Origin: a virus
Length of the DNA stretch: 37,259 nt
Virus record (IMG/VR): IMGVR_UViG_3300034630_000003
Span: 1-37,259 of that record
Reading direction: 5' to 3' (one strand)
Shown: positions 2,609 through 22,936 of the stretch, piece by piece
Layout of the letters: each line of letters starts with the position of its first letter
Position numbering within the stretch: the stretch's first letter is position 1
The notes under the pieces: model-generated
Databases searched by the model: none
Seen by the model: the letters and a program-made list of their open reading frames with translations, nothing else
Told to the model about the DNA's origin: nothing
Program-made: the position numbers and the translations under genes

Positions 2609-3300
2609 GGGGCGAGATTTCCTCCGGGCGGCACTCCAAGCGGCACCCGCTCGACTGGTACGTCGATGAAATCTGGTGTGCGCGTCAGCTGGCGCTGGTG
2701 CTGGATGAATTCGCGCTGGAGAAAGCCGAGGGTCTTGCGATCTGGGATCCGTGCTGCGGCCTCGGGAACACGATGCAGGCGGCGTGGGAGCTGGGCCTCC
2801 AGACGTTTGGCAGCGATCTCGTCGACAACTTCGCCTGGTCAAGTTTCCCCGATGATTTCGAGGGGTTGGCGCAGCCAAAGTTGAGCTCGGGCGACTTCCT
2901 CGAACAGACCGTCGCGCCTGCCCCGTGCAGCATCGTCTGCAACCCGCCCTACAGCTACGTCAAGGGCATCGCCGAGGCGTTTGCGCGGCACGCTCTCACG
3001 CTCAGCTCGCGCCGGGTCTGCATCCTGATGCCGAGCAAGTGGCTCGCCAGCCAAGCGCGCTACCAGCTGTTCACCGATCATCCGCCGCAGGCGGTGCTGC
3101 ACCTGTGCCAGCGCCCCTCGATGCCGCCGGGCGACAGGATCGCGGCGATGGGCAAGCGGGCCTTCAGCGGCGGGATGACCGATTACTGCTGGATCGTGTG
3201 GGACGTGAAGCGGCCCACGCCGCGCGGCCAAACGCGCACGATCTGGCTGCCCCCGCTCCACCGCAATTCGGAAATTCGCTCGCTTGAGGAGGTGCTGTGA
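2605..3300 (+). CDS. DNA N6-adenine methyltransferase
   Basis: 231-residue SAM-dependent DNA methyltransferase. Motif I, which binds SAM, is DPCCGLG (48-54), and motif IV, the catalytic loop, is NPPY (113-116), typical of N6-adenine enzymes. FARHAL and ILMPSKWL further on fit the strand/helix order after motif IV. There is no cognate endonuclease, so it is an orphan phage methylase, probably shielding phage DNA from restriction or modifying regulatory sites. The start overlaps the ParB-like gene by ATGA. The target sequence cannot be read from the protein. Confidence 0.85.
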   Translation: MRGEISSGRHSKRHPLDWYVDEIWCARQLALVLDEFALEKAEGLAIWDPCCGLGNTMQAAWELGLQTFGSDLVDNFAWSSFPDDFEGLAQPKLSSGDFLEQTVAPAPCSIVCNPPYSYVKGIAEAFARHALTLSSRRVCILMPSKWLASQARYQLFTDHPPQAVLHLCQRPSMPPGDRIAAMGKRAFSGGMTDYCWIVWDVKRPTPRGQTRTIWLPPLHRNSEIRSLEEVL

Positions 3301-19848: not shown

Positions 19849-21171
19849 ATGTCCGATATCAAGAACCTGACGCGCAAGGAGGCGCAGGAGAAGCTTCAGA
19901 CCCGCCAGGACGACATGGCCAAGGTGATCGCCGAGGCCAAGACCGACAGCGGCGAGCTGGATTTCCGCAACGTGAAGTCGCTCGGCACGCCTGCCGGTGA
20001 CAGCATCGCGGTGGCCGAGAAGTTCAAGGCGCTCAATGACGAGGCCGACGCGCTCTGCAAGCACATCGAGACGCTGGGTGCTGCCGAAAAGGCCGCTGCC
20101 GATCACGCCGATCGTGAAAAGGGCATCCGGGGCTTCACCTTCCCCGGCCAGGGCGTCGGCAACGGCGGGCGGCCTGCGAACGAGGGCCAGTTCAAGTCGC
20201 TCGGCCAGCAGATGACCGAGGCCAAGGAGTTCAAGGCCTGGCGCGACAACTCCAAGAGCGGCGGGGTCGACATCGCGCTCGATGCGTTGCCCTCCGATTT
20301 CCTTGCCAAGGCGGCGCAGTTCCAGACCCTGGGCAACAAGGCGCTGATGACCACGGCGGCGGGCTTTGCCCCGGAAAGCCTCCGCCTGCCCGGCTTCGTC
20401 GACGCGGTGACCCGCCCGATCCAGCTGCTCGACATCTTGCCGATGGGGCAGGTCTCGCAGGCGGCGGTGCCCTACATGGAAGAAACCACCCGCACCCACG
20501 CGGCTGCGGAAGCGGCTGAAGGCGCGGCGTTTGCGGAAAGCACCTTCGTCTTCACCCAGCGCTCGATCCCGGTGGTCAAGATCACCGACAGCCTGCCGGT
20601 GACCGACGAGCAGCTCGAGGACGTGGCGCTGATCGAAAGCTACGCCAACGGCCGCCTCGCGTTCGGCGTGCGTCAGCGGCTCGACCAGCAGGCGATGTCG
20701 GGCAACGGCACCGCGCCGAACATGCGCGGCATCCTCAACACGGCGGGCATCCAGACGCTGGCGCGCGGTGCCGATCCGCAGATGGACGCGCTTTACAAGG
20801 CGATGGTGCGGATCCGCACGATTGGCCGGGCGCTGCCGACCCACCAGTGCATCCACCCGCTCGACTGGCAGGACATCCGCCTGACGCGCACCGCCGACGG
20901 CATCTACATCTTCGGTTCGCCGATGGAGGCCGGGCCGGAGCGGCTGTGGGGCCTTCCGGTGGTGCAGAACGAAAGCATCGCCGAGAACACCTCGCTGGTC
21001 GGCAGCTTCGAGCCGAGCTGGATCACGTTGTTCGAACGGCGCGGGATCGATCTGCAGGTCGGCTACGTCGGCAACCAGTTCGGCCAGGGCATCCGCACGA
21101 TGCGCGCCGACATGCGCGCCGCGCTGGTGCTGTTCCGCCCGGCAGCGTTCCACACCGTCACCGGCATGTGA
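19849..21171 (+). CDS. HK97-family major capsid protein
   Basis: 440 residues. The N-terminal about 110 residues form a charged coiled coil (delta/scaffold domain) expected to be removed by the prohead protease. The rest is the HK97 fold: VDAVTRPIQLLDILPMGQV, PYMEETTRTHAAAEAAEGAA, KITDSLPVTDEQLED (spine helix region), VRQRLDQQAMSGNGTAPNMR, and MEAGPERLWGLPVV. It ends LVLFRPAAFHTVTG, typical of the last P-domain strand. Three strong hairpins follow the stop. Confidence 0.94.
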   Translation: MSDIKNLTRKEAQEKLQTRQDDMAKVIAEAKTDSGELDFRNVKSLGTPAGDSIAVAEKFKALNDEADALCKHIETLGAAEKAAADHADREKGIRGFTFPGQGVGNGGRPANEGQFKSLGQQMTEAKEFKAWRDNSKSGGVDIALDALPSDFLAKAAQFQTLGNKALMTTAAGFAPESLRLPGFVDAVTRPIQLLDILPMGQVSQAAVPYMEETTRTHAAAEAAEGAAFAESTFVFTQRSIPVVKITDSLPVTDEQLEDVALIESYANGRLAFGVRQRLDQQAMSGNGTAPNMRGILNTAGIQTLARGADPQMDALYKAMVRIRTIGRALPTHQCIHPLDWQDIRLTRTADGIYIFGSPMEAGPERLWGLPVVQNESIAENTSLVGSFEPSWITLFERRGIDLQVGYVGNQFGQGIRTMRADMRAALVLFRPAAFHTVTGM

Positions 21172-21178
21172 TGAACCC

Positions 21179-21295
21179 GGCCAGCGCGGCTTGCATGGCA
21201 GCCGCGCTGGCCTGTCGGGGCCGGTCTGCCCTGATCCCCGCAGACCGGCCCCGGCTTTCCCGGCGGCTCCCCTCACCCGAGCCGCCCGGCAAGCC
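21179..21295 (+). terminator. Three consecutive hairpins after the capsid gene
   Basis: Hairpin 1: 13-bp perfect stem GGCCAGCGCGGCT / AGCCGCGCTGGCC (21179-21191, 21200-21212), 8-nt loop. Hairpin 2: 13-bp perfect stem GGGGCCGGTCTGC / GCAGACCGGCCCC (21217-21229, 21240-21252), 10-nt loop. Hairpin 3: 21253-21269 with 21279-21295, 15 of 17 pairs, 9-nt loop. They fill nearly the whole 144-bp gap. There are no T-runs. They could be a partial terminator that lowers downstream transcripts, or a 3'-end stabiliser for capsid mRNA. Confidence 0.75.
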
Positions 21296-21315
21296 CAGAC
21301 TTCAGGAGCACTGCA

Positions 21316-21573
21316 ATGTCCGTCACCCAATCCGGCTTCACCCGCACGGTCGCCACCGCCGTCGTTCGCGGCGGGCCGATCGGCAACATTCCCGTCCCCG
21401 GCATCCGCGACGGCGACACGCTGATCAGCGTCGTCTCGCTCACCGCTGCGTTCGTGCGCACCGATCGCTTCGCCAACGCCTCGATCCCCGCGAACAGCGA
21501 GGGGCGGATCGCGATGGCGACCGTCGACACCAGCACCGAGTGGCTCGTCGTCACCTGGCGCAAGGCCCAGTGA
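21316..21573 (+). CDS. Small protein after capsid, possible head decoration protein
   Basis: 85 residues, ATG 21316 with CAGGAG upstream. It is beta-rich (IPVPGIRDGDTLISVVSLTA and VDTSTEWLVVTWRKA). Position directly after the capsid gene and small all-beta composition fit a capsid-stabilising or decoration protein, but no family is recognised. Confidence 0.65.
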   Translation: MSVTQSGFTRTVATAVVRGGPIGNIPVPGIRDGDTLISVVSLTAAFVRTDRFANASIPANSEGRIAMATVDTSTEWLVVTWRKAQ

Positions 21574-21625: not shown

Positions 21626-21979
21626 ATGTCCCAGAACATGATCGCAGCTGCAAAGCTGTTCCTTGTCGCCGACAAGTCCGAGCTGGTCGCCGAGGGCGAT
21701 CCGCGCGCGGCGTTCCTCTACGCGACGCCGGGCGATGAAATCCCCGCCGAAGCCGCCGAAATGTTCGGCCTGGTCGACGGCGATATCGACCCTGCTTTGG
21801 CCGAGCGCCTTGCCGCTGATCGCGAGGAGGCCGCTGCCGCTGAAGCCGCCGCCGCCGAAGCCGCTGAGAAGGAAAAGGCCGCCGCTGAAGCCGCTGCCGC
21901 TGAAGCCGCTGAGAAGGAAAAGGCCGCTGCCGCCGACAAGGCCAAGCCCGCCTCGGCCAACAAGGCTGCGACCAAGTGA
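21626..21979 (+). CDS. Head-region protein with alanine/glutamate-rich tail
   Basis: 117 residues; the ATG at 21626 is chosen because AGGAG lies nine bases upstream (another ATG at 21596 has no such site). The N-terminal 60 residues form a small domain (AKLFLVADKSELVAEGDPRA). The C-terminal half is low-complexity Ala/Glu/Lys helix made partly of a 45-bp tandem repeat and ends NKAATK. Similar N-terminal domains with extendable tails occur after capsid genes in alphaproteobacterial siphophages. Function unknown. Confidence 0.65.
   Translation: MSQNMIAAAKLFLVADKSELVAEGDPRAAFLYATPGDEIPAEAAEMFGLVDGDIDPALAERLAADREEAAAAEAAAAEAAEKEKAAAEAAAAEAAEKEKAAAADKAKPASANKAATK
21836..21925 (+). repeat. 45-bp tandem repeat, two copies
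   Basis: GAGAAGGAAAAGGCC with its Ala/Glu-coding surroundings occurs at 21866 and again at 21911, a 45-bp (15-residue) offset. The unit encodes about AEAAAAEAAEKEKAA twice. Because it is a multiple of three, copy number can change without breaking the frame. Confidence 0.7.
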
Positions 21980-22115
21980 CCATCCGCGTCAACACTGAGC
22001 AAGCCGCTGCTGGGGCCGTTGCGAAGGAAGCCGCTGCCAAGGAAGCGCCTGCTCCGGCCAACAAGGCCAAGCGTGCCGCTGAGAACAAGGCTGCGACGAA
22101 GTGACCATCCGCGTC
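21959..22115 (+). repeat. Direct-repeat pair bounding a 42-aa gene
   Basis: 32 bp at 21959-21990 recur at 22084-22115 with one difference, offset 125 bp. Each copy encodes the end NKAATK, the GTGA stop/start overlap and the start MTIRV. The frame lying between is therefore flanked by the tail of the upstream protein and the head of the downstream one, the mark of a tandem duplication at the gene junction. Confidence 0.8.
21976..22104 (+). CDS. 42-aa duplication-derived microprotein
   Basis: GTG 21976 to TGA 22104, 42 residues. It begins MTIRVN, like the next protein (MTIRVR), and ends ENKAATK, like the previous one (ANKAATK). Between lies Ala/Lys/Glu-rich low-complexity sequence (AVAKEAAAKEAPAPANKAKR). 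GTGA overlaps couple it on both sides. It looks like a hybrid frame made by unequal recombination. Whether it is functional or merely tolerated cannot be told. Confidence 0.5.
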   Translation: MTIRVNTEQAAAGAVAKEAAAKEAPAPANKAKRAAENKAATK

Positions 22116-22361
22116 CGCGTCACCACCGGCGATTTCCCGGCTGCCGTTCTGTCGTATCCGCGCGACGGTGATCCGGTGCATGGTGCCGAGTGGACGGAAG
22201 TTGCGCGCGTTCCTGCGAATTCCGAGCAGGAGTTCACCGTGGGCGCGAGCATGGACCTCTTGGTCGCCGAGCTGCCCGAGGCGCAGGCCCCGGCTGAAGT
22301 CCAGCCCCAGAAAGAGGCTGCGTCTTTGTCGCCTACCGCTTCGCTGCATGAGGCTGCGTGA
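22101..22361 (+). CDS. Hypothetical head-region protein
   Basis: 86 residues from GTG 22101. It has a beta-rich first part (MTIRVRVTTGDFPAAVLSYP, EQEFTVGASMDLLVAELP) and a flexible Ala/Pro/Glu-rich tail. It lies between capsid-region and connector genes. No family is recognised. Overlaps the next gene by TGATG. Confidence 0.6.
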   Translation: MTIRVRVTTGDFPAAVLSYPRDGDPVHGAEWTEVARVPANSEQEFTVGASMDLLVAELPEAQAPAEVQPQKEAASLSPTASLHEAA

Positions 22362-22936
22362 TGCCCGATTTCGCGCTTCTCGACCGGGTCAGGCTCCGCG
22401 TCCCCAGCGACCTGCCGGACGGCGAGCTGCTGGCCATGATCGATGCGATCGCCGCCGAGCTTGACGCGCGGTTCGGCCCGGCGGGGGCGCAGACGATCGA
22501 GCTGGGCGATCCGACCGATCCGGCCTCGCGCCTGCTGCGCACCCACCGGCTGATGCGTCCGGCGGACACGACGCAGCCGGTCGCGGTGGTCGAGATCGAT
22601 CCGGGCAACACCGGGCTTGCCGCGAACGAGGTGACGCTGGCGGCGGGGGATTTCCGCCTGCTGCACGGCGGGCGCACGCTCCAGCGGCTCACCGGCGGGC
22701 CGAACCCGCGCGAATTCTGGGCACCGCTGGTCCGCGTCACCTACACGCCGCAGGGCCTCGCCGCCGCGCGGGGCGAGGTGACGATCAAGCTGATCGCGCT
22801 CGATCTCAGCTATCGCGGCGCGCTGCGCAGCGAGCGGGCGGGCGATTACCAGTTCACGCTGAGCGGTGACATCGCCGCCGATCGCGAGGCGATCTTGCAG
22901 ACGCTGGCCGACCGGCGCGGGATGGTTTTCGCGTGA
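22361..22936 (+). CDS. Putative head-tail connector protein
   Basis: 191 residues from ATG 22361 (GTG 22358 also possible). The N-terminal helices (ALLDRVRLRVPSDLPDGELL, MIDAIAAELDARFGP) resemble gp6-like head-tail adaptors, followed by a beta-rich domain. Its place after the capsid gene and before the HK97 gp10-like and tail-terminator genes supports a connector role. The exact family is not recognised. Confidence 0.6.
   Translation: MPDFALLDRVRLRVPSDLPDGELLAMIDAIAAELDARFGPAGAQTIELGDPTDPASRLLRTHRLMRPADTTQPVAVVEIDPGNTGLAANEVTLAAGDFRLLHGGRTLQRLTGGPNPREFWAPLVRVTYTPQGLAAARGEVTIKLIALDLSYRGALRSERAGDYQFTLSGDIAADREAILQTLADRRGMVFA

Follow-up and report, generated by a model that had tools for sequence, protein, structure and literature searches.

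A chimeric 42-codon reading frame between two phage head-region genes, attributed to an old tandem duplication across their junction

How does a frame of 42 codons come to lie between two genes, overlapping the stop of one and the start of the next by the same four bases? Tiny coupled genes whose origin is unknown are numerous in phage genomes, and the frame described here, M, occurs in a 37,259-base virus record (the window, i.e., the whole stretch that was analysed) belonging to an HK97-type tailed phage. All features lie on the strand shown (+). The gene for the major capsid protein (ATG at 19849, end at 21171; Pfam Phage_capsid, E = 4.9e-36) is followed by B (21316–21573), A (21626–21979, 117 aa), M (21976–22104), C (22101–22361, 86 aa) and D (22361–22936), a homologue of the Sinorhizobium phage StopSmel and Aussie genes annotated as head-to-tail adaptor. 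Gene A, which has an AGGAG ribosome site, consists of a conserved N-terminal domain (about residues 1–54) and a variable Ala/Glu/Lys tail, while C is predicted to form a five-stranded β domain (residues 1–57) followed by a disordered tail. A, M and C had no Pfam family matches, and the best PHROG matches were at E = 0.28 for A and E = 0.094 for M, with none for C. The interval between the capsid gene and B (21172–21312) contains three strong adjacent hairpins (minimum free energy −91 kcal/mol, z = −6.8; none of 200 shuffles was as stable). These had no match in Rfam, which gave 0 matches across the window and five loci.

M starts with GTG and is composed of a C-like start, MTIRVNTEQA, and an A-like tail (..ANKAKRAAENKAATK) that ends in NKAATK. 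It shares a GTGA with each neighbour: the stop of A overlaps the start of M at 21976–21979, and the stop of M overlaps the start of C at 22101–22104, as read in the sequence. Both overlaps lie within a 32-bp core repeat. Copy 1 (21959–21990; AACAAGGCTGCGACCAAGTGACCATCCGCGTC) comprises the last six codons of A, the overlap and the start of M; copy 2 (22084–22115), offset by 125, comprises the last six codons of M, the overlap and the start of C. The copies are identical at 31 of 32 bases. Among all 32-mers in the window, compared at offsets of 15–1000, this level was reached at only two places, the core pair and a 45-bp repeat in the tail of A. The initial annotation had described this repeat, the frame from MTIRV to NKAATK and the coupling geometry on both sides, and its coordinates were exact.

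It had also given 32 bp as the size of the repeat, which holds for the near-perfect match and fails for the full extent. The 93 bases 5′ of core copy 1 equal the 93 bases between the cores at 63 positions, in the same 125-nt register, indicating that a whole block of about 125 bp was duplicated, with the tail of A, the overlap and the start of C. Copy 1 of this unit (21866–21990) contains the tail of A, the GTGA and the first codons of C, and copy 2 (21991–22115) matches it in register; the outer ends are uncertain by about 12 nt. Similarity across the copies is 79% over 113 bases. Judged by these comparisons, the core is merely the best-kept part of a tandem duplication of ≈113–125 bp. Codon shuffles of the 93-base match gave a mean of 39.3, and 0 of 20,000 reached 63; the next-best of 87 in-frame registers against gene A gave 53 of 93. 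Local alignment in which the register was not fixed gave a weaker result (4 of 2,000 shuffles), as expected of a low-complexity tail. In such an alignment, the tail from one relative, L073, scored 50, compared to 55 for the window's own tail, so it is the fixed register, and not the raw score, that carries the argument for duplication. A and C are both whole on either side of M, being full length compared to their relatives. From sequence comparison, then, an origin of M by tandem duplication across the junction, as the initial annotation had proposed, appears well supported.

The duplication was apparently not recent. Mismatches amount to 1/32 in the core and 30/93 in the flank (Fisher p = 6e-4), and a divergence of 32% in the flanks does not fit the earlier description of M as a fresh "visible intermediate". 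The junction is also the better kept part among relatives, with 69% retained compared to 44% for the tail (ungapped; nine relatives, 36 pairs). The natural reading is that of an old duplication in which the region of the translation start has been kept. Even the closest relatives share only about 80% identity with the window in the adaptor, and close dating is therefore not possible.

The undoubled state of the junction was sought in related loci. Of 145 loci fetched, 50 besides the window carry A and C on the given strand; counted once per distinct 120 nt around the stop of A, these reduce to 17 distinct junctions. (L069, L077, L113 and L114, in which C is present with no A nearby, were left out of this census.) In every one of the 17, the start of C lies −4 to +4 nt from the stop of A, and in L076, where the junction is on the other strand, A and C overlap by GTGA and M is absent. 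M is thus missing from 18 of 18 other A–C junctions, and the gap in the window is 121 nt, compared to −4 to +4 nt. These represent fewer than 18 independent lineages, since L057, L112, L078, L076 and some others are close kin. This was the comparison that the initial annotation had suggested, and the 125-bp unit was absent from all 18. When 17 relatives were searched for a second copy of the junction within 600 nt, the best matches were 16–19 of 32. A tblastn search of phage records yielded no match to M, which is not conserved in any of the relatives' junctions examined. Searching viral_contigs with the GTGA core as a pattern returned 10 stretches, none of which had homology to A, C, D or the capsid protein at E = 1e-3.

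A tree of D was built from 25 rows, 18 of them C-bearing and 7 chosen C-less. The window falls in a clade of 12 rows (support 100/99), the other 11 of which lack M, and six more C-bearing rows without M lie outside this clade. With M-less, C-bearing phages both inside and outside the clade, the simplest reading of the tree is that M was gained on the branch leading to the window. We had first read the alignment as showing that the GTGA overlap was derived from a TGA-spacer-ATG arrangement by a deletion of 10–11 nt, but gave this up: of the six C-bearing loci that lie farther off in the tree, five also have a 4-nt overlap and one an overlap of 1 nt, so that the change may have run in either direction.

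Three C-less relatives have a well conserved, GC-rich and apparently non-coding stretch after A (L004, 3312–3410; L034, 2898–2990; L074, 3216–3310), and L033 and L059 have another common stretch 3′ of A, unlike the former. Single-sequence folds of the stretches in L034, L074, L033 and L059 were no better than shuffles. The head-gene block of L004 (MZ436628.1), a phage recorded from Microcystis, is related to those of Sinorhizobium phages and loci in sphingomonad genomes, and the recorded host may consequently deserve checking.

The tail of A is a repeat-prone setting. It contains the 45-bp in-frame tandem repeat (21836–21927, 2.0 copies, 95% matches) that had been noted beside the junction, and tandem repeats with a period of at least 24 nt occur in 20 of 37 distinct A genes, including that in the window; in L050, for example, the period is 90 nt, and in L023 it is 66 nt. 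The suggestion that the locus is recombination-prone is borne out by this distribution. Tails of A seem to gain and lose length through tandem duplication, and in the window the duplicated block would have overrun the stop codon. Several other peculiarities were seen in this region. In L029, a separate 36-aa tail-like frame (2887–2997, ending in AENKGG) lies between D and an A that ends differently; it may be a tail of A released by another route, or it may be a broken A. In L018, the 3′ end of C has its own tandem duplication (2930–3004, WPTASLREA twice) just before the start of the adaptor. The A proteins of L029, L033, L056 and L057 contain an inserted "GIGxATAKAL"-like segment, which resembles a helix-hairpin-helix motif.

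The other parent, C, was modelled with a mean pLDDT of 76 for the predicted β domain. Fold searches of PDB and BFVD with C gave nothing at E = 0.001, no Pfam family was found for any of 12 members, and searches of plasmids and of phage records gave no match to C. The C profile matched in 3 of 397 genomes from the family of the Erythrobacter locus. A DNA search in the genus of that locus matched 71 of 114 genomes, mostly through short low-complexity stretches as judged from the listing; G001 and G501 alone among the 71 were examined further.

M retains only the first of the five predicted strands of C, and for this reason is not expected to fold like C. Its product is probably an incidental, disordered 42-mer. 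The earlier description of M as a gene, in a functional sense, does not hold up well. Nei–Gojobori (NG86) counts over 33 codons gave pS = 0.375 and pN = 0.197, an intermediate ratio, from just two copies of which one is inside A, that is no more than suggestive of purifying selection. In simulated drift, the frame stays open in ≈50% of cases with 31 changes and in 66% with 15, and no homologue of M was found. The best reading is that M is a by-product of the repeat-prone tail.

We consider it likely that a duplication of the A/C junction gave rise to M, that A, M and C are translated as a reinitiation chain, and that the job of M, should it have one, is being translated. In the ancestor, A would have been followed directly by C, as in every relative found. 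As the sequence shows, a segment of about 125 bp was duplicated head to tail; it began in the low-complexity tail of A, took in the GTGA and ended perhaps ten codons into C. The mechanism was presumably slippage or short-homology recombination in the repeat-prone tail. A and C stayed whole, with M between them combining a C-like start and an A-like end; since phase was preserved at the junction, the frame of M runs without a stop between the two GTGA overlaps. Ribosomes finishing A would restart on M, and those finishing M would restart on C. The job of M, if any, would then be to be translated, not to give a particular peptide.

A role for M as a ribosome relay from A to C is plausible because C lies 121 nt past the stop of A and has a weak ribosome site. 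The sites of M and C, at −2.6 and −2.7 kcal/mol, came out as the weakest pair among 12 starts (the others range from −4.8 to −11.5), in a scoring that used an assumed 16S end and placed the capsid start three bases too far downstream. In native gene pairs of E. coli and H. volcanii, reinitiation is almost abolished at gaps of about 20–38 nt, while for coupling the upstream gene's final 15 nt suffice (PMC10666635). The conserved core contains those last 15 nt. With such a loss at gaps of that size, C would be poorly coupled to A if M were absent; with M in place, each junction would bear a full coupling cassette. Programmed −1 frameshifting from A to M to C was considered and rejected, as no slippery heptamer was seen by eye at either stop.

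The same duplication might instead have left M as a passive spacer, untranslated or an irrelevant relic, with C starting from its own weak site. We consider this a minority reading, if a serious one. An AAGG is found about 10 nt 5′ of each GTG, from which C might be started independently, and this counts against a relay, as does the fact that chance alone leaves the frame open in about half of simulated drifting copies; nor was there RNA structure at the junction beyond that of shuffles (z = 0.75 to 1.49). On the other hand, the site of C is among the two weakest, the invariable proximity of C to the stop of A in relatives suggests that coupling matters, and mismatches are much sparser in the GTGA core than in the flank. 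About as tentative is a neutral ratchet, in which the duplicated stop/start cassette displaced C from A and the leftover, in-phase frame became indispensable merely since ribosomes must read through it. If this were true, a microgene would become essential via translation itself, ahead of any peptide function.

Unequal recombination between two related phages, joining the A–C junction of one to the A tail of the other, seems rather improbable. It would suit a nearly identical core between diverged flanks, and the sequence after core copy 1 (21988–22017, VNTEQA) is nearer to the way C begins in other phages (VITEEA) than to the beginning of the window's own C (TTGDF), with shuffle counts of 5/3000 for L016, 27/3000 for L063 and 1,100/3000 for the window's own C. 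This likeness is suggestive only, since L016 was the best of thirteen starts tried and its fit is weak once corrected; moreover, the window's own C may have changed since, and an unbroken 125-nt register across the unit is the outcome of tandem duplication. Still more doubtful is that M is a selected new protein, for example an extra A tail serving as a small virion or assembly peptide. M has gained no residue outside a polar/small set, and simulated copies stay open with the same set in only 5% of cases with 31 changes (25% with 15), but the set was picked after M was seen. The separate frame before D in L029 might be a parallel, were it not possibly a broken A, and neither the failure to find homologues among relatives or phage records nor a dN/dS that is not clearly low favours selection. 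We give almost no credence to a chance likeness of Ala/Lys-rich, low-complexity DNA or to an assembly artefact, the latter raised at the outset as what would undo the claim. The tail of A is indeed of low complexity, and the record is of the IMG/VR type, its read support not being given. Yet the core reaches beyond the tail to take in where C starts, the best second copies in relatives are far poorer, and the register tests rule out chance; nor would a false doubling of reads yield copies with 31 differences over 125 bases.

The duplication followed by a reinitiation chain, which we prefer, has parallels in known systems. In S. aureus, short-junction tandem duplications created nusG′-′sigH and rplK′-′sigH (PMC3486894); in one clone, B1, the unit is 1210 bp, flanked by 8-bp repeats and recent, and the chimera was detected on a Western blot. 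As in that account, both parents of M are whole, and the chimera takes its beginning from the downstream gene and its end from the upstream gene. Unlike it, the phage unit is about 125 bp, old and placed across a 4-nt overlap, and the product of M is a prediction. The overlaps at the two ends of M are of the most common type for coupled genes, that of termination–reinitiation at ATGA or GTGA (PMC6728339, PMC10666635); M differs from such 4-nt overlaps in having two near-identical cassettes in series, made by duplication, with predicted coupling.

The in-gene repeats of A resemble the growth of low-complexity protein tails by tandem repetition, except that here the duplicated block overruns the stop into the next gene, so that the added sequence formed a frame of its own and did not lengthen the tail. 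Since the parents, the unit, the register and the unduplicated relatives are all visible, one route to tiny coupled genes can be traced, and it becomes a testable question whether being translated, rather than the peptide made, can be the reason for a frame to persist. That tandem duplication can make a chimera between whole parents is already known, and M, as read from its sequence, is a smaller and older phage example; it illustrates clearly, though without proof, one way in which small new genes may begin.
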